Shown: one piece after another, positions 2,445-58,974 of the stretch
Numbering within the stretch: position 1 is the first letter of the stretch
Layout of the letters: each line of letters starts with the position of its first letter
DNA from: Pseudoclavibacter helvolus
GTDB taxonomy: Bacteria > Actinomycetota > Actinomycetes > Actinomycetales > Microbacteriaceae
NCBI RefSeq assembly: GCF_014191305.1
Contig: NZ_JACHWJ010000001.1
Coordinates: 930,001 to 994,000 of the forward strand
Length of the DNA: 64,000 nt
Reading direction: 5' to 3'
The notes under the pieces: generated by a model
What the model saw: the letters and a program-made list of their open reading frames with translations, nothing else
Databases searched by the model: none
What the model was told of the DNA's origin: nothing
Position numbers and translations under genes: made by a program

Positions 2445-3122
2445 TCAGCTGGGTGTGGCGAACTCAACAGCTGGCTCTGCGCCCAGGCCGCTTTCGACAC
2501 TGGCTGTCGCTGCGACGAGGAGCCGCCCGTAGCGCGTGATCTCGGTCTTGTTGATGCGGTAGCTCGGGACGAGCAAGCTGAGCGAAGCGATGACACGTTG
2601 CTGCAGTGCGATCGGGGCGGCGATGGCGGTGACATCCTTCTCGATACCCCGTTCGATCGTCACGTAGCCTCCTGACGGGGTCCCCCCGCGAAGCACCTGT
2701 CCAGACGCCGAGCCTTCGAGCGGAATGGTCCGACCGACCCAGTTCGTGTGGCGAACAGATTGGCTCCCCTCGTGGATTGCGATGTAGAGCGCCTGGTCCG
2801 CGTGGCCTTCAACGCAGAGGTAGACCGACTCCCCCGTCGCTTCAGTGATCTCGCGCATGACAGGCGCACACATCAGCACGAGATTGTCCTTGGATAGCGC
2901 CTGCGCACCGAGCTGCACGATGCGACTGCCGGCATGGAAGTCGCCCGCCTCGTCGCGCCGCACAAATCCAGCGGATTCAAGCGTGCGGAGGAGTCGCAGG
3001 GAAGTGCTCGCGGAGAGATCAGCGAGGCGCGCGCTCTCGGCGAGACTCAGGCTGCCGCGTTCGCAGACGAACGCGAGCAGGGACAGCGCTCGCTCGACTG
3101 TGCGGGTCGATGATTCGGTCAA
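2445..3122 (-). CDS. IclR-family transcriptional regulator (probable hut regulator)
   Basis: A 225-residue IclR-type regulator. The N-terminal winged helix-turn-helix covers about residues 1-65 (TVERALSLLAFV, then SLAESARLADLSASTSLRLL) and the IclR effector domain follows (VMREITEATGESVYL, HTNWVGRTIPLEGSASGQV, AIAAPI). The start is a TTG at 3122 with a strong GGAGGT five bases upstream; an in-frame ATG at 3254 lies beyond the two palindromes and is unlikely. It is the first gene of the leftward hutU operon, with a candidate double operator at 3206-3236, so autoregulation and control by a histidine-pathway intermediate are likely (inferred). Confidence 0.9.
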   Translation of the reverse strand: MTESSTRTVERALSLLAFVCERGSLSLAESARLADLSASTSLRLLRTLESAGFVRRDEAGDFHAGSRIVQLGAQALSKDNLVLMCAPVMREITEATGESVYLCVEGHADQALYIAIHEGSQSVRHTNWVGRTIPLEGSASGQVLRGGTPSGGYVTIERGIEKDVTAIAAPIALQQRVIASLSLLVPSYRINKTEITRYGRLLVAATASVESGLGAEPAVEFATPS

Positions 3123-3205
3123 CTTACCTCCTTCGTTGCAGGCAAGCTCCGCGGGGAAGAGACGAGATAGAAGGCCGAGCCTACCTCCACACAGTAGAAC
3201 GCATT

Positions 3206-3236
3206 TGCCACTGAATGGCAAGCAGTGGCCACTGCG
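3206..3236. promoter_or_regulatory. two abutting palindromes, candidate IclR-type operators
   Basis: Positions 3206-3222 read ttgccactgaatggcaa, a perfect 6-bp inverted repeat around 5 bases. Immediately next, 3223-3236 read gcagtggccactgc, a perfect 14-bp palindrome. They lie about 85-115 bp upstream of the regulator start, between it and hutD. IclR-family proteins bind 14-17 bp palindromes, often in pairs, so these are the natural operator candidates. Binding is inferred. Confidence 0.6.
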
Positions 3237-3272
3237 TGGTCCTTTCGACTCCAAGCAATCGGATGGCCCCGG

Positions 3273-4444: not shown

Positions 4445-5646
4445 GGCCGCTCCTCCCGGTCGGTGATGTAGTGCGGCACGAACTCGGCAAGGTCGCCCGT
4501 GATCGGACCGCTCGTCTCCCGGACATCGATCCCTGCCGGGGCCTCCCCCACGACCCAGGAGCCGACGATGACGGTCTTGCCATCGATATTGGCGAGCTGG
4601 GCGCGCTCCTGGTACACGAACCCTTCCTCACCATAGTCGCCGCCGTTCTCGGCAGTCTTGCGCCCGACGAGGTCGTAGATCGTGACGTTCGCGCCCTCCC
4701 GGCCCAGCTTCGGCTTCTCGACATAGGCCTTGCCGCGGAGACGCTCAGGGGTTGCGTAGGCGGCCAAGAGCAGCGGATGCTCGGGGAAGAGCTCCCACAG
4801 GACGACGAGGAGCTGCTTGTTCGAAAGCAACATCTTCCAGATCGGCTCGACCCAGGCCGTTGTCGCGCGCGTCGTAGGGAAGTACTGCGCGAACTCCTCG
4901 CGCACCATCCACTCCCATGGGTACAGCTTGAAGATGCGGTCGATCCGCTCGCCGTCAGCGTCGACGAAGCCGTGGGAAGCCTCATCGAACTGGACGTCCT
5001 CCATGAAGATCTGCTTCACTTCGAAGCCGGCGAGACGCGCCGTCTCCGCCATGTAGCTCACCGTGTCGGCGTCTTCGACGATGAGCTCGCCGTCGCCGTC
5101 GTCGTGGAGGGATGCCAGGTGCAGCCGTGCCCCCTGGGGCAGGAACCATCGCTGCACGCGGATGTGCACCCACTGCTCCACGAGCAGTTCGTGCAGCAGA
5201 TTGAACTGATCGGCAGCCTCGCCGCGTGTCTCTACAAGCCACTGCCACTGCGCCGCGGCAGACTCCACGAGCGACGTCGGGGTATCCGCGTTGAACTCGA
5301 GCAATTTGATGGTGCCCGCGCCGTCGTAGGCGAGGTCGAATCGACCGTAAACGGTCGGGTCGTCTTCATCCCAGGACTTCTCGACGAGGTCCCAGAGCTC
5401 CACGGGGATGCCAAACTCCGCGAAGCGGCGGTCGCGCACAACACGCTCGCACGCCTCCATGCAGAGCCTGAAGAGCTCGGCCGTCGCACGCTCGAAGTCG
5501 TCGATCTCGTGGCTCGAGAACCCGTAGGCGGCTTCCTCCTGCCAGTACGGGCGACCGCCCTCAGACTCCATGTCGTAGAACGTGAAGCCGATGGAGTCAA
5601 ACCTCGCGCGCCAGTCGGCCCGCGGAGCACTGTACGTGCGGATCAA
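4441..5646 (-). CDS. glutathionylspermidine synthase-like protein, YgiC family (ATP-grasp)
   Basis: About 401 residues matching the YgiC type of the glutathionylspermidine-synthase fold. Clear blocks are YGRFDLAYDG, LLEFNADTPTSLVES, IFKLYPWEWMVREEF, WVEPIWKMLLSNKQLL, KPKLGREGANVTIY, YGEEGFVYQ and VIVGSWVVGE..AGIDVRE. The fold carries an ATP-grasp ligase site; the substrate of YgiC is not established, and it lacks the amidase half of true glutathionylspermidine synthetase. A TTG at 5646 following a purine-rich AGGGATGGG fits the family N-terminus; a longer in-frame ATG at 5712 is possible. It is translationally coupled to the downstream YgiB-like lipoprotein gene. Confidence 0.85.
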   Translation of the reverse strand: MIRTYSAPRADWRARFDSIGFTFYDMESEGGRPYWQEEAAYGFSSHEIDDFERATAELFRLCMEACERVVRDRRFAEFGIPVELWDLVEKSWDEDDPTVYGRFDLAYDGAGTIKLLEFNADTPTSLVESAAAQWQWLVETRGEAADQFNLLHELLVEQWVHIRVQRWFLPQGARLHLASLHDDGDGELIVEDADTVSYMAETARLAGFEVKQIFMEDVQFDEASHGFVDADGERIDRIFKLYPWEWMVREEFAQYFPTTRATTAWVEPIWKMLLSNKQLLVVLWELFPEHPLLLAAYATPERLRGKAYVEKPKLGREGANVTIYDLVGRKTAENGGDYGEEGFVYQERAQLANIDGKTVIVGSWVVGEAPAGIDVRETSGPITGDLAEFVPHYITDREERP

Positions 5647-5758
5647 TTTTGGCCCATCCCTGCTTCTCTCGATTCGCTGCCGGGCGCCACCCGGCGGCTC
5701 CCCAGCAAACACTAGAGCCCCTGCACCGTGATTCCCCGGAGAACTTCCCCCGCGTCAC

Positions 5759-7630
5759 CTACCTGATCGTGAATTCCTGACAGCCGAGGTTCGTCATGTT
5801 CGACGCCGACTCGATTGCGACCGCGCAGGCCGAGTGCCTGCCGGGTGAGAGCGACGCCGCCGCCCAGAACCCGTGCTTGCCGGCGACACCGAGGCCGGGC
5901 GATGGCAGGTCAGCAGACACCGCATGATGCCAACTGCCGTCGATGAGAATGGCCACCGAGATGGATCTGCTCGGAGTGCTTGGGGCGAGCGCCCAACCGT
6001 AGAAAACCTTCACTCGACCGGACGCATCCGCGAGAGCCATCTGCCCAAGCGGTGCGGCCTGCTTTACGACGGTGACCGTCTGACACGGCGGAAGGCTGTT
6101 GTTACCTGCACCGAAACCAACCCCGACGGTGCAGATGAAGTGGTCGCCCAGGCTCAGCTCGAAGGTCATCGAGTACCCATGAGCACCAGGAATACCGTAC
6201 GCGTGCAGGTTCGAGGATGCCCGATCCGCGCTCGTCGCGTGCCATTTGCCGTCGACCGTGATGCCGACGGGGATCGTCGTGTACATGTCCGAAAGATCGA
6301 ACGCGTGGCCGGAGACCGTGACACTGGTGCCTGAGACCCTCACATTCGCAGTTGAGTTCACGTCGAAGCGCTTCACTGCCTCCGAGTACGTGTAGCCATC
6401 CTTGACCCACCTCGAGAGGTAGCGGCCGGCGGTCGTCATCCCAAGCGGGTTCATGTGGGTGGAGTCGTCCGGCGCCATCCAGAACGACTTCGGCATGAGC
6501 CCGACGCCCATGGAACCGTAGTCGGCGGCTGTGGGCACGCGTCCAGCATCGGTGAGCGCGCCGTTCAAGAGGTAGTCGGAGAGAGGGATGGCCCGCTCGC
6601 CATACGTCTGTCGAATCCAGGCGTTCACCTGGTTGCGGTTGTTGTTGAGCGGGTTCGAGTAGTCCCAGCGAGGCGGAAGCTGGATCACGTACGCCTTGGC
6701 GCCGACGGCGGTGTGCGCCTCGACCACCTTGGCGATGACCTCCTTGACTCGCGCAGTGTCTTCGATGCCGTTGGCACCGATCCAGAGCACACTCGACGAT
6801 CCGGGAAGCGGCGTCTCGAGCGAATTGATCCGCGTGCCGGCGGCCACCCACAAGGGACTGCCCGACCCGCTGCGGGTGAACTTCCAGTGCAGGCTCGCGT
6901 CCGCGAGGTCAGGGAAGTGCGTGATCTTCCCGCGGATTCCGCCGATCTCGACGTCGAACGTGATCCGCCCCAGGTACCTCGAGTCCATGGGCAGACCAAC
7001 AACATCCCCGAGGTTCACTGAACCGGAGCCCGGCACGAGGATCGTCTTCGAAAGGCTCGTCTGGTAGACGCCCGCGATCGTGCCGATGGCGACCGGACCG
7101 ATCGACCCAACCCCGTAGTTCCGGACGTTCCATCCGGGCAGGTACGTACCAAGATGGCCGCCGCCGCACAGGTAGTCGATCGACGAAGAGCCGTAGCACT
7201 GCACGGTCGTCGGACTGGACTGACGCGACTCAGGGGTCGCACTCGGCACAGGCGGTGCGGTGGCCGTCGGAGGCGTGCTCGGCGCGGTTGGAGAGGCGGG
7301 GCCCGCCGTCGTCGGCTGCTGCAGGTCCTCATTCGCACTCGGACCTGTCGACGCCGGCGGAACCTCCGCATCATCCGTTTCGGAGGGTTGGGGAGACGGC
7401 GAAGGCGCGACAGCTGTGGGGGCCGCGGTCGGGGCCGCCGTGCCCGTGGGCGGCGTCGTGGCCGTCTGCTGCGGGGATTGAACAGCACCGTCGGTCAGCT
7501 GACCATCGAGGGACGGGTCCGAGACTGGCGGAGTGGACGTCGGACTCGCCACAGCCGGTGTGAGAGGCGCAACCAAGAGGGCAAGGCTGAGCACAAGAAC
7601 CGTGAGTACTTGCTTCGCTGCGGACCGCAT
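5759..7630 (-). CDS. secreted SGNH/GDSL-type hydrolase with Pro/Thr-rich linker
   Basis: 623 residues. A Sec signal peptide covers about residues 1-29 (hydrophobic core VLTVLVLSLALLVAPL, cleavage near AVAS), followed by a low-complexity Pro/Thr/Ala/Ser linker to about residue 140. The catalytic part has a block-I-like YGSSSIDYL, VLWIGANGIED resembling the SGNH Asn/Gly block, and DDSTHMNPLGM, which supplies the Asp-x-x-His pair. Two repeated C-terminal segments (VSGHAFDLSD...VDGKWH and YGWALAPSTP...IDGSWH) look like a duplicated domain, possibly wall or sugar binding. It is probably an exported esterase or deacetylase on cell-surface polymers; the substrate is not visible. Confidence 0.75.
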   Translation of the reverse strand: MRSAAKQVLTVLVLSLALLVAPLTPAVASPTSTPPVSDPSLDGQLTDGAVQSPQQTATTPPTGTAAPTAAPTAVAPSPSPQPSETDDAEVPPASTGPSANEDLQQPTTAGPASPTAPSTPPTATAPPVPSATPESRQSSPTTVQCYGSSSIDYLCGGGHLGTYLPGWNVRNYGVGSIGPVAIGTIAGVYQTSLSKTILVPGSGSVNLGDVVGLPMDSRYLGRITFDVEIGGIRGKITHFPDLADASLHWKFTRSGSGSPLWVAAGTRINSLETPLPGSSSVLWIGANGIEDTARVKEVIAKVVEAHTAVGAKAYVIQLPPRWDYSNPLNNNRNQVNAWIRQTYGERAIPLSDYLLNGALTDAGRVPTAADYGSMGVGLMPKSFWMAPDDSTHMNPLGMTTAGRYLSRWVKDGYTYSEAVKRFDVNSTANVRVSGTSVTVSGHAFDLSDMYTTIPVGITVDGKWHATSADRASSNLHAYGIPGAHGYSMTFELSLGDHFICTVGVGFGAGNNSLPPCQTVTVVKQAAPLGQMALADASGRVKVFYGWALAPSTPSRSISVAILIDGSWHHAVSADLPSPGLGVAGKHGFWAAASLSPGRHSACAVAIESASNMTNLGCQEFTIR

Positions 7631-9598: not shown

Positions 9599-11051
9599 GG
9601 CTCTTGGGACATCCGGTGGGGTGAGGCTCGCCGGGTGAGGTGTGGCGGTCGGGGTCGAGGTCCCCGAGGATCAGAAGCGCTAACTCACTGATCTTCACGA
9701 GGACCTCAACGTGCTTCACCCTACTTCCGTGCGCCCTGACGTGCGCTCTTCCTGTCCGTGTTCCCGCTGTGATCTGTTGCTCGGCATCGATGGTGTGCAT
9801 GTCGAGCATGTCGACCGCCGTGATGACGTGTTGGTGGTGACGGTCTCGAGCCCCGCGACGCCGGCCGGGTGCCCGTCGTGCGGTGTCATCGCGACTGGAC
9901 GAGGGCGTCGACGACGAGTACTTCATGATGTGCCCGGCGCGACGCGAGTGCGCATCTGGTGGCGGCAGCGCGTGTGGCGCTGTGACGAGGAAGACTGCGC
10001 GCGGAAGACGTTCGTGGAGCAACTGCCGACCCTTGTCGCGCCGCGAGGATCGATCACGAAGCGCGGCATCGACTGGGCGCTCTGGCAGCTGCGCCGCGAA
10101 CACGCCACGATTTCGGGGCTTGCCCGGCAGCTGGGCACGTCGTGGAAAACGGTATGGCGGGCCATCGAACCCCGACTCATCACGCTCGCCGCCGATGAGT
10201 CCCGGTTCGAGAACGTCACCACCCTCGGTGTCGATGAGCATGTCTGGCACCACGTCGATGCCCGCAAGCGGGGCCCGAAAGAGCTGACCGGCATGGTCGA
10301 TCTGACCCGCGACGTGCACGGGAACACCAAGGCCAGACTCCTCGACCTCGTGCCCGGCCGATCGGGGAAGGTCTACGCAACCTGGCTGGGTGAGCGAGGC
10401 GACGCCTTCCGGAAAACCGTGGAAGTCGCGGCGTTGGATCCGTTCGCGGGCTACAAGACCGCGATCGATGACCAGCTCGACGATGCCGTCGCGGTGCTCG
10501 ACGCGTTCCACGTCGTGAAGCTCGGCACCGCGGCCGTGGACGAGGTCCGACGCCGCGTCCAGCAAGACACCCTCGGACACCGCGGCCGCAAGGGCGACCC
10601 GCTCTACGGCATCCAGACCATCCTCCGCGCCGGAGCGGAGAACCTCACCGACAAGCAACACACCCGCCTGACCGCGGCGATCGATGCCGACCCCGCCCAC
10701 GATGAAGTGTTCATCGCCTGGCAGTGCGCGCAGCAACTACGCTCCGCGTACCGCCAGAAGCATCTCACCGAGGGGCGCAGAATGGCCGAGCACGTCACCG
10801 ACCGGTTCCATACCTGCCCGATCCCCGAGATCGCCCGCCTCGGCCGGACCCTGCGCCGGTGGCGGTCAGCGTTCCTCGCGTACTTCACCACCAACCGCGC
10901 GAACAACGGCGGCACCGAAGCCGTGAACGGCATCATCGAGCTCCACCGACGCCCCGCCCGCGGCTACCGCAATCGACACAACTACCGACTCCGCATGCTC
11001 CTCGCCGCAGGAGGCCTCACTTCATGACCCCCACCCAATGTCCGAAGAGCC
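9599..11051 (+). mobile_element. ISL3-family insertion sequence, copy 1
   Basis: 1,453 bp. Imperfect terminal inverted repeats of about 26 bp: the left end begins ggctcttgggacatccgg and the right end, read from outside, begins ggctcttcggacattggg. One transposase gene fills most of it. No difference from copy 2 was noticed, which indicates very recent duplication. Confidence 0.93.
9711..11027 (+). CDS. ISL3-family transposase (copy 1)
   Basis: 438 residues, starting at a GTG behind GAGGA. An N-terminal zinc-finger segment (CPSCG at about residue 54) and a helix-turn-helix (ISGLARQLGTSWKTVWRAI) precede the DDE catalytic region. Candidate acidic residues are Asp in TLGVDEHVW, Asp in AVLDAFHVVK, and Glu in GTEAVNGIIE near the C-terminus, as in ISL3 transposases. 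Full length with no stop, so probably active. Its frame ends 24 bp before the element's right end. Confidence 0.95.
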   Translation: MLHPTSVRPDVRSSCPCSRCDLLLGIDGVHVEHVDRRDDVLVVTVSSPATPAGCPSCGVIATGRGRRRRVLHDVPGATRVRIWWRQRVWRCDEEDCARKTFVEQLPTLVAPRGSITKRGIDWALWQLRREHATISGLARQLGTSWKTVWRAIEPRLITLAADESRFENVTTLGVDEHVWHHVDARKRGPKELTGMVDLTRDVHGNTKARLLDLVPGRSGKVYATWLGERGDAFRKTVEVAALDPFAGYKTAIDDQLDDAVAVLDAFHVVKLGTAAVDEVRRRVQQDTLGHRGRKGDPLYGIQTILRAGAENLTDKQHTRLTAAIDADPAHDEVFIAWQCAQQLRSAYRQKHLTEGRRMAEHVTDRFHTCPIPEIARLGRTLRRWRSAFLAYFTTNRANNGGTEAVNGIIELHRRPARGYRNRHNYRLRMLLAAGGLTS

Positions 11052-17256: not shown

Positions 17257-18709
17257 GGCTCTTGGGACATCCGGTGGGGTGAGGCTCGCCGGGTGAGGTG
17301 TGGCGGTCGGGGTCGAGGTCCCCGAGGATCAGAAGCGCTAACTCACTGATCTTCACGAGGACCTCAACGTGCTTCACCCTACTTCCGTGCGCCCTGACGT
17401 GCGCTCTTCCTGTCCGTGTTCCCGCTGTGATCTGTTGCTCGGCATCGATGGTGTGCATGTCGAGCATGTCGACCGCCGTGATGACGTGTTGGTGGTGACG
17501 GTCTCGAGCCCCGCGACGCCGGCCGGGTGCCCGTCGTGCGGTGTCATCGCGACTGGACGAGGGCGTCGACGACGAGTACTTCATGATGTGCCCGGCGCGA
17601 CGCGAGTGCGCATCTGGTGGCGGCAGCGCGTGTGGCGCTGTGACGAGGAAGACTGCGCGCGGAAGACGTTCGTGGAGCAACTGCCGACCCTTGTCGCGCC
17701 GCGAGGATCGATCACGAAGCGCGGCATCGACTGGGCGCTCTGGCAGCTGCGCCGCGAACACGCCACGATTTCGGGGCTTGCCCGGCAGCTGGGCACGTCG
17801 TGGAAAACGGTATGGCGGGCCATCGAACCCCGACTCATCACGCTCGCCGCCGATGAGTCCCGGTTCGAGAACGTCACCACCCTCGGTGTCGATGAGCATG
17901 TCTGGCACCACGTCGATGCCCGCAAGCGGGGCCCGAAAGAGCTGACCGGCATGGTCGATCTGACCCGCGACGTGCACGGGAACACCAAGGCCAGACTCCT
18001 CGACCTCGTGCCCGGCCGATCGGGGAAGGTCTACGCAACCTGGCTGGGTGAGCGAGGCGACGCCTTCCGGAAAACCGTGGAAGTCGCGGCGTTGGATCCG
18101 TTCGCGGGCTACAAGACCGCGATCGATGACCAGCTCGACGATGCCGTCGCGGTGCTCGACGCGTTCCACGTCGTGAAGCTCGGCACCGCGGCCGTGGACG
18201 AGGTCCGACGCCGCGTCCAGCAAGACACCCTCGGACACCGCGGCCGCAAGGGCGACCCGCTCTACGGCATCCAGACCATCCTCCGCGCCGGAGCGGAGAA
18301 CCTCACCGACAAGCAACACACCCGCCTGACCGCGGCGATCGATGCCGACCCCGCCCACGATGAAGTGTTCATCGCCTGGCAGTGCGCGCAGCAACTACGC
18401 TCCGCGTACCGCCAGAAGCATCTCACCGAGGGGCGCAGAATGGCCGAGCACGTCACCGACCGGTTCCATACCTGCCCGATCCCCGAGATCGCCCGCCTCG
18501 GCCGGACCCTGCGCCGGTGGCGGTCAGCGTTCCTCGCGTACTTCACCACCAACCGCGCGAACAACGGCGGCACCGAAGCCGTGAACGGCATCATCGAGCT
18601 CCACCGACGCCCCGCCCGCGGCTACCGCAATCGACACAACTACCGACTCCGCATGCTCCTCGCCGCAGGAGGCCTCACTTCATGACCCCCACCCAATGTC
18701 CGAAGAGCC
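17257..18709 (+). mobile_element. ISL3-family insertion sequence, copy 2
   Basis: 1,453 bp, same orientation as copy 1 and apparently identical to it, with the same terminal inverted repeats. Its right flank aggaaagt duplicates the left flank of copy 1; its left flank interrupts the small gene at 17161. Confidence 0.93.
17369..18685 (+). CDS. ISL3-family transposase (copy 2)
   Basis: 438 residues, the same product as at 9711-11027: zinc finger, helix-turn-helix, then a DDE domain with Asp in TLGVDEHVW, Asp in AVLDAFHVVK and Glu in GTEAVNGIIE. GTG start behind GAGGA. Intact, so either copy could mobilise the pair or an individual element. Confidence 0.95.
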   Translation: MLHPTSVRPDVRSSCPCSRCDLLLGIDGVHVEHVDRRDDVLVVTVSSPATPAGCPSCGVIATGRGRRRRVLHDVPGATRVRIWWRQRVWRCDEEDCARKTFVEQLPTLVAPRGSITKRGIDWALWQLRREHATISGLARQLGTSWKTVWRAIEPRLITLAADESRFENVTTLGVDEHVWHHVDARKRGPKELTGMVDLTRDVHGNTKARLLDLVPGRSGKVYATWLGERGDAFRKTVEVAALDPFAGYKTAIDDQLDDAVAVLDAFHVVKLGTAAVDEVRRRVQQDTLGHRGRKGDPLYGIQTILRAGAENLTDKQHTRLTAAIDADPAHDEVFIAWQCAQQLRSAYRQKHLTEGRRMAEHVTDRFHTCPIPEIARLGRTLRRWRSAFLAYFTTNRANNGGTEAVNGIIELHRRPARGYRNRHNYRLRMLLAAGGLTS

Positions 18710-20043: not shown

Positions 20044-20078
20044 GCTCCCTGAGATGGACTCGAACCATCAACCTGCCG
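20044..20078. repeat. attL core (35 bp)
   Basis: Runs from gctccctgagatgg to caacctgccg and is identical to 58901-58935. It is the displaced chromosomal copy of the tRNA-Asn 3' part (T-arm and acceptor stem, antisense on this strand). Sequence identity stops immediately on both sides. Confidence 0.95.
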
Positions 20079-20197
20079 ATAGTGAGAGTGCCGCAGAAGC
20101 GCGCGAGCTCGCATCCGTCACCGAGCTACACCCGCGCCGCGACGACGTCGAGGAGATCCACGAGGCCGTCATCTCGAGTCTGGTAGTGAACCGTTGA
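20079..20197 (+). other. detached 3' coding end of the viral form of the immunity repressor
   Basis: Read in the same frame as the repressor at the other end of the prophage, this stretch continues directly from the core as DSESAAEARELASVTELHPR and then 19 more residues ending SSLVVNR before TGA. In the prophage it has no legitimate start. A 69-codon frame from 19988 crosses it only because chromosomal sequence is fused in front. In the excised circular genome it would form residues 98-136 of the repressor. The tail is acidic, with two glutamate-rich segments, and has no canonical ssrA-type end. Confidence 0.85.
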
Positions 20198-20307: not shown

Positions 20308-21096
20308 ATGATCCGCGACTACCGTCACCACCTCCACGCCATGAACCGCCGCGAGCGGACGATCGAGCTGTACATGTACTGGCTCGACCGCATCCGGCGA
20401 GCCTGCGGACCGCTCGAGGCCGTCACTGCCCAGTCGCTCGAGGTGTTCATCTCCGCGCAGACGGGTGCGCAGACCAAGAAGAGCGTCCGCACGGCGGCTC
20501 GCAGCTTCTACGCGTGGGCCCACAAGCGAGGCCACCTACCTACCAACCCAGCTGCCGACCTCGACCCCGTCAGCATCCCCTACTCGATCGCCCGCGTCGC
20601 GAAAGACTACGAGCTCGCCCGCGTACTCAACCGGCCAATGTCGATGGAAGCTCGCGCCGCCGTCACACTCGCCCGCCTCGGCTGCCTTCGCCTCGCCGAG
20701 ATCACCACGCTGCGCACCGACCACCGCGACGGCGACTCGATCCGCTTCGAGGGCAAGGGTGGACGCGAGCGCATCGTGTACCTGCACCCCGACCTCGACG
20801 GCGCGCTCCGCGGTTTGCAGGCCATGCAAGGGCGCGGCTACTTCTTCCCGGGCCGTTACGGCGGACACGCGAGCACCTCGTTCGTGTACAAGCTGATCCG
20901 CGAGACCACCGGCTACAACCCGCACGCACTCCGCCACGCCGGGGCGACCGCCGCCTACCAAGCCACGGGCGACCTGCGTGCCGTGCAAGAGATGCTCGGT
21001 CACTCGTCAATCGCCACCACACAGCGGTACCTCCACCTCAACGACCGAGCTCGCCGCGCCGTCGCGCACGGCACGTCGCTCCGCCTCGTCGCGTAG
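20308..21096 (+). CDS. int: tyrosine-type phage integrase
   Basis: 262 residues, ATG with CAAGGAG eight bases upstream. An N-terminal SAM-like core-binding domain (about 1-95) is followed by the catalytic domain with all key residues: Arg128 in GCLRLAEI, Lys150 in FEGKGGR, His206 and Arg209 in HALRH, His232 in LGHSS, and nucleophile Tyr241 in TTQRYLH. It lacks a large arm-binding domain, so it is a short integrase. It ends SLRLVA, like an ssrA-type degradation tag. It catalyses integration at tRNA-Asn. In the circular phage it lies just downstream of the repressor on the same strand and could be co-transcribed with it. Confidence 0.96.
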   Translation: MIRDYRHHLHAMNRRERTIELYMYWLDRIRRACGPLEAVTAQSLEVFISAQTGAQTKKSVRTAARSFYAWAHKRGHLPTNPAADLDPVSIPYSIARVAKDYELARVLNRPMSMEARAAVTLARLGCLRLAEITTLRTDHRDGDSIRFEGKGGRERIVYLHPDLDGALRGLQAMQGRGYFFPGRYGGHASTSFVYKLIRETTGYNPHALRHAGATAAYQATGDLRAVQEMLGHSSIATTQRYLHLNDRARRAVAHGTSLRLVA

Positions 21097-58333: not shown

Positions 58334-58552
58334 CTAGACCCGCTGGGCCTCTACTGGGGATGCGTCGCTTGGCGTCAGGAGCGCCGCGACGTCGCGGCGC
58401 TTGAAGCGGCGGTGGCCAGTTGGGAGCTTGGATGCCTCGAGACGGCCGTCCTCGACGTAGCGGTCGAGCGTGCGGCGACTGATGTTGAGCACATCCATCG
58501 CTTCGGCGGCGGTCAGGTTTTCATCCGCCTCAACCTGTTGAGCTTTCGTCAT
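58334..58552 (-). CDS. excisionase/Cro-like HTH protein (MerR-type HTH_17)
   Basis: 72 residues from MTKAQQVEADENLTAAEAMD. The helix-turn-helix NLTAAEAMDVLNISRRTLDR and the wing GHRRFKRRDVAAL are of the excisionase/MerR type. It is the first gene of the leftward early operon and diverges from the immunity repressor across 91 bp, the place of cro or xis in temperate phages. A codon earlier ATG at 58570 lacks family similarity. Confidence 0.8.
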   Translation of the reverse strand: MTKAQQVEADENLTAAEAMDVLNISRRTLDRYVEDGRLEASKLPTGHRRFKRRDVAALLTPSDASPVEAQRV

Positions 58553-58606
58553 ACCGCAGGACGCTAACACACATCCACGTCATGCTGTGCCATTTTTCTC
58601 ATACGC

Positions 58607-58640
58607 TTGCGCGGTTGTCATCGTTTGGCATACGATGGCA
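58607..58640 (+). promoter_or_regulatory. repressor promoter with overlapping dyad operator
   Basis: TTGCGC (58607-58612), 18 bases, then TACGAT (58631-58636) form a promoter whose start point falls at about 58644, the A of the repressor ATG, giving a leaderless message. The dyad CATCGT-N7-ACGATG (core 58619-58637, extended by TG/CA at 58616-58617 and 58639-58640) covers the -10 box, so the repressor or the HTH protein probably binds here. Confidence 0.55.
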
Positions 58641-58643
58641 CAC

Positions 58644-58940
58644 ATGTCGAACGTCGCCAGCATCTTCCCGGAACCTCAACCAGTTGACGAGAGTTCTAAG
58701 CCCGTCAACCGTCGAGTAGGTATGAACGCAAGCATCATCATGCGGATGCGGCGGATCACGCAGAAGCAGATGGCTGCTGCGCTCGGCGTGACTCAGGGCG
58801 CAATGAGCCGTCGCATCAACGGCACGACCGACTGGTCACCGGACGACATGGAAAAAGCCGCCCACCTTCTGAATGTGAAGGTGGCACGGCTTTTCGAAGA
58901 GCTCCCTGAGATGGACTCGAACCATCAACCTGCCGGTTAA
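58644..58940 (+). CDS. immunity repressor (XRE-type HTH), prophage form truncated at attR
   Basis: 98 residues. The HTH is at about residues 37-60 (RITQKQMAAALGVTQGAMSR). An upstream in-frame ATG at 58635 lies inside the -10 box, so 58644 is preferred. Residues 87-97 (LPEMDSNHQPA) are encoded by the 35-bp attachment core, and the last codon and TAA lie in host tRNA sequence. In the circular phage the frame would continue through 20079-20197 and reach 136 residues. The neighbour int lies directly downstream in that form. This is the architecture of integration-dependent immunity, where the short form is the stable, active repressor. Confidence 0.88.
   Translation: MSNVASIFPEPQPVDESSKPVNRRVGMNASIIMRMRRITQKQMAAALGVTQGAMSRRINGTTDWSPDDMEKAAHLLNVKVARLFEELPEMDSNHQPAG
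58901..58935. repeat. attR core (35 bp)
   Basis: Identical to 20044-20078. Here the core is part of the intact tRNA-Asn gene, so integration keeps the tRNA functional. It also lies inside the repressor coding sequence on the opposite strand. Confidence 0.95.
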
Positions 58941-58974
58941 CAGCCGGCTGCTCTGCCAATTGAGCTATCAGGGA
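58902..58974 (-). tRNA. tRNA-Asn (anticodon GTT)
   Basis: 73 bases. Acceptor stem TCCCTGA pairs with TCAGGGA, discriminator G, no encoded CCA. The anticodon arm ccggc-TGTTAAC-cgg carries GTT, and the T-arm has GGTTCGAGTCC. The 35 bases at the 3' side come from the phage attachment site but restore the same sequence. Confidence 0.97.

Follow-up and report, generated by a model that had tools for sequence, protein, structure and literature searches.

The siphovirus-like prophage in the tRNA-Asn gene of Pseudoclavibacter helvolus probably runs an integration-dependent immunity switch (probability about 0.66), in which a long repressor encoded by the circular phage genome would be short-lived or impaired and a shorter form created by integration would keep the lytic genes off. 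The layout is of a known kind, that of mycobacteriophage BPs, found here in Microbacteriaceae with some unusual details. Coordinates are collected in the table and refer to the window, the whole 64,000-nucleotide stretch of DNA analysed.

Table. Features of the prophage and its attachment sites, in window coordinates.
Feature	Position	Strand	Details
12-bp perfect inverted repeat, 4-nt loop	20011-20038		repeat search; int-side flank
att core, int-side copy	20044-20078	+	35 bp, exact repeat
3' extension of repressor frame in joined form	20079-20197	+	joined frame; matching tails in relatives
prophage, siphovirus-like	20079-58935		38,857 bp as circle; att copies
tyrosine integrase	20308-21096	+	262 aa, ends LRLVA; PF00589 4.4e-19
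divergent HTH_17 gene, excisionase/Cro-like	58334-58570	-	PF12728 3.6e-11; phrog_66 2.4e-8
imperfect inverted repeat, 12-bp arms, 83%	58616-58640		repeat search; lies between divergent genes
repressor, prophage form	58644-58940	+	98 aa; HTH_3, 4.3e-7
att core, repressor-side copy	58901-58935	+	35 bp, exact repeat
host tRNA-Asn(GTT)	58901-58974	-	intact after integration
TAA stop of prophage repressor	58938-58940	+	antisense of tRNA-Asn nucleotides 35-37

A repeat search finds exactly two copies of the 35-bp attachment core in the window, and scanning all 3.84 Mb of the assembly, at up to three mismatches, adds no further copy. The two flank a prophage of ~38.9 kb; a second or nested integration as the origin of the two cores is not favoured, since the assembly holds these two copies only. 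Proteins encoded between the cores match terminase, portal, head maturation protease, major head, tape measure, minor tail, endolysin, ParB-like and replication-initiator proteins, and 6 of the 19 prophage proteins tried were without a match. A decayed prophage is not favoured either, as packaging, head, tail and lysis genes are all matched. Outside the prophage, an exact 1453-bp repeat (9599-11051 and 17257-18709) carries a 438-aa ORF in each copy, the first of which matches ISL3 transposase (PF01610, 1.3e-50); the two copies are an insertion sequence pair.

The repressor-side core is the 3' part of the tRNA-Asn(GTT) gene, the target that an earlier note on this DNA had named. It is the single tRNA-Asn gene among 45 tRNAs found in the genome, and, as in BPs-type phages, attB overlaps a host tRNA gene that integration leaves intact. 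The hairpin at the int-side end is likely the host terminator of the tRNA-Asn gene, pushed aside by the insertion. In the lysogen the repressor gene heads antisense into this tRNA-Asn gene, the only one found; judged by orientation, repressor transcription may enter it, and interference with the tRNA is possible.

The repressor ORF enters the core in frame, so that the core sits within the repressor coding sequence as in BPs, a reading of the earlier note that the joined frame and the uninterrupted genes of nine viral contigs support. In the prophage the ORF ends one codon past the core, GGT at 58935-58937, which shares the core's last base and is followed directly by TAA; the three codons claimed earlier were an overcount. 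Joining 58935 to 20079 lengthens the protein from 98 to 136 residues, as had been proposed: codon 98 is assembled from 58935 and 20079-20080, codons 99-136 occupy 20081-20194 and a TGA follows at 20195-20197. An in-frame ATG at 58635 could lengthen both forms by three residues. TACGAT stands 7 nt before the repressor ATG (58631-58646), and the repressor mRNA may be leaderless because no ribosome-binding site is visible; the promoter scan gave none on the repressor strand and one on the opposite strand only, with TACGAT not reported.

The remaining gene order also agrees with the earlier note. In the phage form, int is the next gene after the repressor, on the same strand, which is the BPs-type order, with 110 nt from the joined stop to the int ATG. 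The HTH_17 gene diverges on the other side and matches excisionase PHROGs; the imperfect inverted repeat between the divergent genes is a candidate operator. An 8-mer arm of an outer inverted repeat was rejected as a dispersed operator, its three matches in the window being equalled by 9 of 100 shuffles. The integrase contains a Phage_integrase domain (residues 107-246) and a weak core-binding domain match (0.0019, under the Pfam cut-off) starting at residue 5 of 262. No arm-domain match was detected, in keeping with the BPs-type integrase, which is without an arm-type domain. A further BPs-type feature is the ssrA-like integrase end, LVA, a variant of the ssrA tag that may mark Int for degradation. 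Among related integrases an AA end is found at 11 of the 14 genome loci and 30 of the 33 viral loci examined.

A search with six aligned integrases yielded 80 genome loci (the best 80 of 96) and 63 viral loci. Of these, 14 from genomes (L050-L062, L075) and 33 from viral contigs (L130-L162) were examined; the remaining 66 and 30 carry more distant integrases. The window's own prophage is among them as L130, and L054 and L142 appear to be one and the same prophage. An antisense tRNA T-loop lies no more than 900 nt upstream of int at 12 of the 14 genome loci and 14 of the 33 viral loci. Less than 250 nt of upstream sequence is present at 18 viral loci, and the T-loop occurs in 12 of the other 15. 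Among the examined loci, no such core was found upstream of int in L054/L142, L056, L132 and L144; the frame of L154 ends after DSNQ.

In nine viral loci (L131, L133, L134, L135, L138, L139, L143, L148 and L157) a single ORF runs through head, core and tail and ends before int; all nine read the core as DSNxxP. A Pfam HTH match at E<=0.001 is present in six of these nine uninterrupted genes, reaching the Pfam cut-off in two only; the match is weak in L134 and L143 and none was found in L157. The L138 protein is 61% identical to the window repressor over 80 aa spanning the core. L139, the same contig as L009, comprises 48,999 bases with one core copy, flanked on both sides by anti-repressor, RecE-like, holin and endolysin matches.

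Pairing of int-side and tRNA-side ends in the window and 13 other genomes gave matching cores in 13 of 14 pairs, the failing pair being L056. L054 was left out of the pairing because its genome gave no tRNA-Asn pattern match, and the pairing of L057 is assumed because its two ends sit on different contigs. In all 13 reconstructed prophages the same TAA closes the prophage form, which gains 11 to 41 residues on joining. A head ORF is present in 12 of them, missing in a Clavibacter remnant, and 7 of ten prophage heads scanned have a Pfam HTH match (E<=0.001). With the window's own included, these prophages and the nine uninterrupted genes bear out the earlier claim of a BPs-like layout with attP inside the repressor gene. 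The claim of a different actinobacterial lineage holds as well, as the relatives include Humibacter, Leucobacter and Frigoribacterium, all Microbacteriaceae, along with Clavibacter, Microbacterium, Naasia and MAGs labelled Actinomycetales and Mycobacterium.

Full-length relatives had also been expected from a protein search with the 136-residue form. In 50,697 phage records this search matched 15, from Gordonia, Arthrobacter and Mycobacterium phages, all partial and in the head part only; the full-length genes lie in the viral contigs reached through their integrases. The integrase matched 161 phage records, every one below 60% identity; closer relatives came from unannotated contigs.

Several loci depart from the large prophages in size or layout. 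Five small prophages (L055, L058, L060, L062 and L075) span ~17-18 kb from int to tRNA-Asn and, like several viral contigs of 16-18 kb, carry the core, frame and integrase type of the large ones. The Agrococcus loci L008 (about 3000-3260) and L054/L142 combine a related integrase with a repressor gene that stops inside the core and a reversed tRNA-Asn sequence, and seemingly have no tail to remove. L144 contains a repressor-like ORF upstream of int (5444-5830) that ends in VAAA and is without an antisense T-loop, thus a tag-like end without a tRNA-Asn-type core. L148 has the same layout at 5779 with a core unlike tRNA-Asn (GCGCCCC...).

The stop that shortens the repressor is supplied by host sequence, another BPs-type feature. 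It is complementary to U35 and U36 of the GUU anticodon and to A37, and a pattern ending GGTTAACAG is present in the genomes of 13 of 14 relatives. An antisense stop triplet occurs at nucleotides 35-37 in 9 of the 45 tRNAs of the host genome. The core is open in all three frames, and the other two run on for 7 to 28 residues in three prophages, so it is the shared frame that stops immediately. In cluster G phages the core is of tRNA-Arg type, is read in a different frame and runs to TGA; the published stop is placed in a Cys codon adjoining the core in the available text of the descriptions (among PMC5559632, PMC9934374, PMC6109161 and PMC9262239). The DSN frame of Gordonia phage Twister6, followed by hand into matching tRNA-Arg genes of actinobacteria, would meet a TAG stop in the anticodon loop, so such a stop may not be confined to the tRNA-Asn group, and we do not claim it as unique to that group. 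A search among open-licence PMC papers found none describing an anticodon-loop stop and none on integration-dependent immunity in Microbacteriaceae.

The 136-residue repressor ends in ...SSLVVNR, and the ssrA-like end on the long repressor, a defining feature of the described systems according to the available text among the same four papers, is absent. In a set of 25 tails, from which L154 was dropped, the end is A, AS or AG in 17 (shuffled mean 4.0), with AA in 6 of these, and 9, the window's included, contain AV[VI]xx[LFI] (shuffled mean 0.15); neither count was reached in 5000 shuffles, and both statistics are inflated by treating related rows as independent. The motif sits near the C-terminus, and the last residues vary among the tails that carry it. 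The window tail shows weak similarity to those of L135 and L139, with scores reached by 57 and 71 of 5000 shuffles. These two tails differ by 11 changes over 23.0 synonymous sites and 7 over 70.0 nonsynonymous sites, and the paucity of nonsynonymous relative to synonymous changes argues that the tail is kept as protein. Constraint is not clear between L131 and L133 (11.5/20.0 synonymous, 20.5/64.0 nonsynonymous), and the L133/L134 pair, with one synonymous and two nonsynonymous changes, is uninformative. The A135E change stabilises the BPs repressor, according to the available text of PMC4557955. By kinship it is plausible that integration removes a destabilising tail in the window phage too, with the recognised signal absent; the missing ssrA-like end lowers the claim of full membership in the BPs type, not the claim of working like it.

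On the circular genome, the 136-residue repressor gene would contain attP, with int downstream on the same strand and probably co-transcribed. Recombination by Int between attP and the 3' part of the tRNA-Asn gene would strip the last 38 complete codons, leaving a 98-residue repressor whose stop would be read from the antisense strand of the tRNA anticodon loop. The same recombination would put int 38 kb from the repressor promoter, beside the terminator-like hairpin, where it is presumably silent in the lysogen. The 98-residue repressor would then hold the lytic genes off; the 136-residue form is probably too short-lived or impaired to repress, with proteolysis as the presumed means, and Int, ending in LVA, is probably short-lived too. 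With the tail removed and int disconnected from the repressor promoter, only lysogens would most likely keep a lasting repressor, judged from kinship and anatomy. The core, shared frame, gene order, uninterrupted genes elsewhere, tRNA-encoded stop and constraint on one pair of tails are read directly from the DNA, and it is kinship that suggests the tail may destabilise or inactivate the long repressor.

The core might merely happen to fall near the end of the repressor gene, with a meaningless joined frame. Openness of the joined frame says little by itself, because 57% of 20,000 random position and strand picks in the window (66% G+C) are open for at least 39 codons. The frame is more than chance because independent phages share it: the nine uninterrupted contig genes and all 13 reconstructed prophages use the same one, though all three core frames are open. 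One tail pair is under constraint, tail ends and motif are non-random, and L138 and L139 already contradict coincidence, barring misassembly of those contigs. A chance open frame is thus ruled out by the relatives and not by the uninformative openness, and coincidence is highly improbable.

Two further readings accept the layout and differ over the tail. The window phage may have inherited the layout after its tail lost a destabilising end, so that the two forms both act as repressors and lysogeny is decided by a short-lived integrase together with the separation of int from the repressor promoter. This would suit an end in VVNR without terminal Ala, set against A, AS or AG in most family tails, as well as the LVA end of the integrase; the window tail nevertheless keeps AV[VI]xx[LFI], and, as seven other tails also end otherwise than in A, AS or AG, an end of this type may be dispensable. 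We consider this reading unlikely. Less likely still is a tail that disables the long form by means other than proteolysis, perhaps by preventing oligomerisation or DNA binding via AV[VI]xx[LFI], as a conserved segment near a C-terminus with varied last residues could suggest; the Ala-type ends on most family tails speak against it, as does BPs, whose two forms bind DNA alike, with proteolysis the reported cause in the available text of PMC4557955. The integration-dependent switch, with a long form that is short-lived or impaired, is the reading we prefer.

The core may also serve as a site of exchange. Rightward from GACTCG in the core, L133 and L134 are 95% identical over 200 bases and 87 to 98% identical in each of eight 200-base segments, to 1.6 kb. 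Leftward, the match extends only as far as the first base of the core; identity drops to ~50% (background) and rises to 72-83% again beyond 600 bp, with no direct BLAST match between the two heads. The converse is seen in L131 and L133, which are identical over the 120 bases before GACTCG and the core, differ in the early tail and are alike again in int. L135 and L139 have tail and int in common (68-76%) and different heads, with similarity extending ~40 bases left of GACTCG, beyond the core. These three comparisons, too few for proof, would be consistent with repressor heads having been exchanged at the core or close to it. To call the heads unrelated families would be too strong: in this small set they form one cluster via intermediates at E<=1e-4, the Clavibacter remnant excepted, although within the L133/L134 and L135/L139 pairs the heads give no direct match to each other.

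We tentatively propose, at somewhat under even odds, that in tRNA-Asn phages of Microbacteriaceae the attP core acts as an interchangeable protein-coding joint, with heads swapped onto a core-tail-integrase module in one frame and with the same stop for every lysogen. The stop would be the same because it is the antisense of U35-U36-A37 of tRNA-Asn, which is hard for the host to change. If this is true, immunity type is a plug-in part, and truncation is guaranteed by the anticodon itself.

With about two dozen examples, the findings extend integration-dependent immunity to a further actinobacterial family, and the natural series of tails with and without an Ala-type end allows the tag's role to be dissected. 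They suggest why tRNA-Asn and the DSN frame are used, since the anticodon loop provides a stop that the host could not readily lose, and through the conserved core phages may be able to trade repressor heads.

In BPs, the gp33 repressor has forms of 136 and 103 residues, with attP inside the gene, a 35-bp core in a tRNA gene and a host-supplied stop (available text of PMC4557955, and among PMC5559632, PMC9934374, PMC6109161 and PMC9262239). The window phage resembles BPs and cluster G in carrying attP in the repressor gene, int directly downstream and a divergent gene upstream, and it shares with the cluster G phages Kasen3 and Angel the order int-repressor-divergent gene and a repressor of 136 residues. 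It differs from cluster G in using tRNA-Asn and TAA instead of a tRNA-Arg-type core read in another frame to TGA, and from Kasen3 and Angel in a long form that ends VVNR, where theirs ends KAS. At the divergent position Kasen3 has a gene annotated 'excise' and Angel one annotated 'RDF protein'; comparison of the window's divergent gene with both found no similarity, and kinship with Angel's 'RDF protein' was rejected accordingly. The described systems are said to be without an evident excision factor in the available text among the same four papers, whereas the window's divergent gene resembles excisionase families.

The M. abscessus prophages and Bifidobacterium Bb423phi2 and 689b-1 likewise have a repressor tail removed at att, although their tails are reportedly ssrA-tagged and their tRNA targets differ, as far as the available text among these papers goes. 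Arthrobacter phage Galaxy has a similar int/repressor organisation and no recognisable degradation tag, but its attP lies outside the repressor gene, unlike that of the window phage (available text of PMC5513430). Twister6, which together with Wizard and others represents the integration-dependent systems of Gordonia, differs in its tRNA-Arg-type core and in a long form that ends PAAA instead of VVNR, yet its integrase is 37% identical to that of the window phage and its core is read in the same DSN frame.
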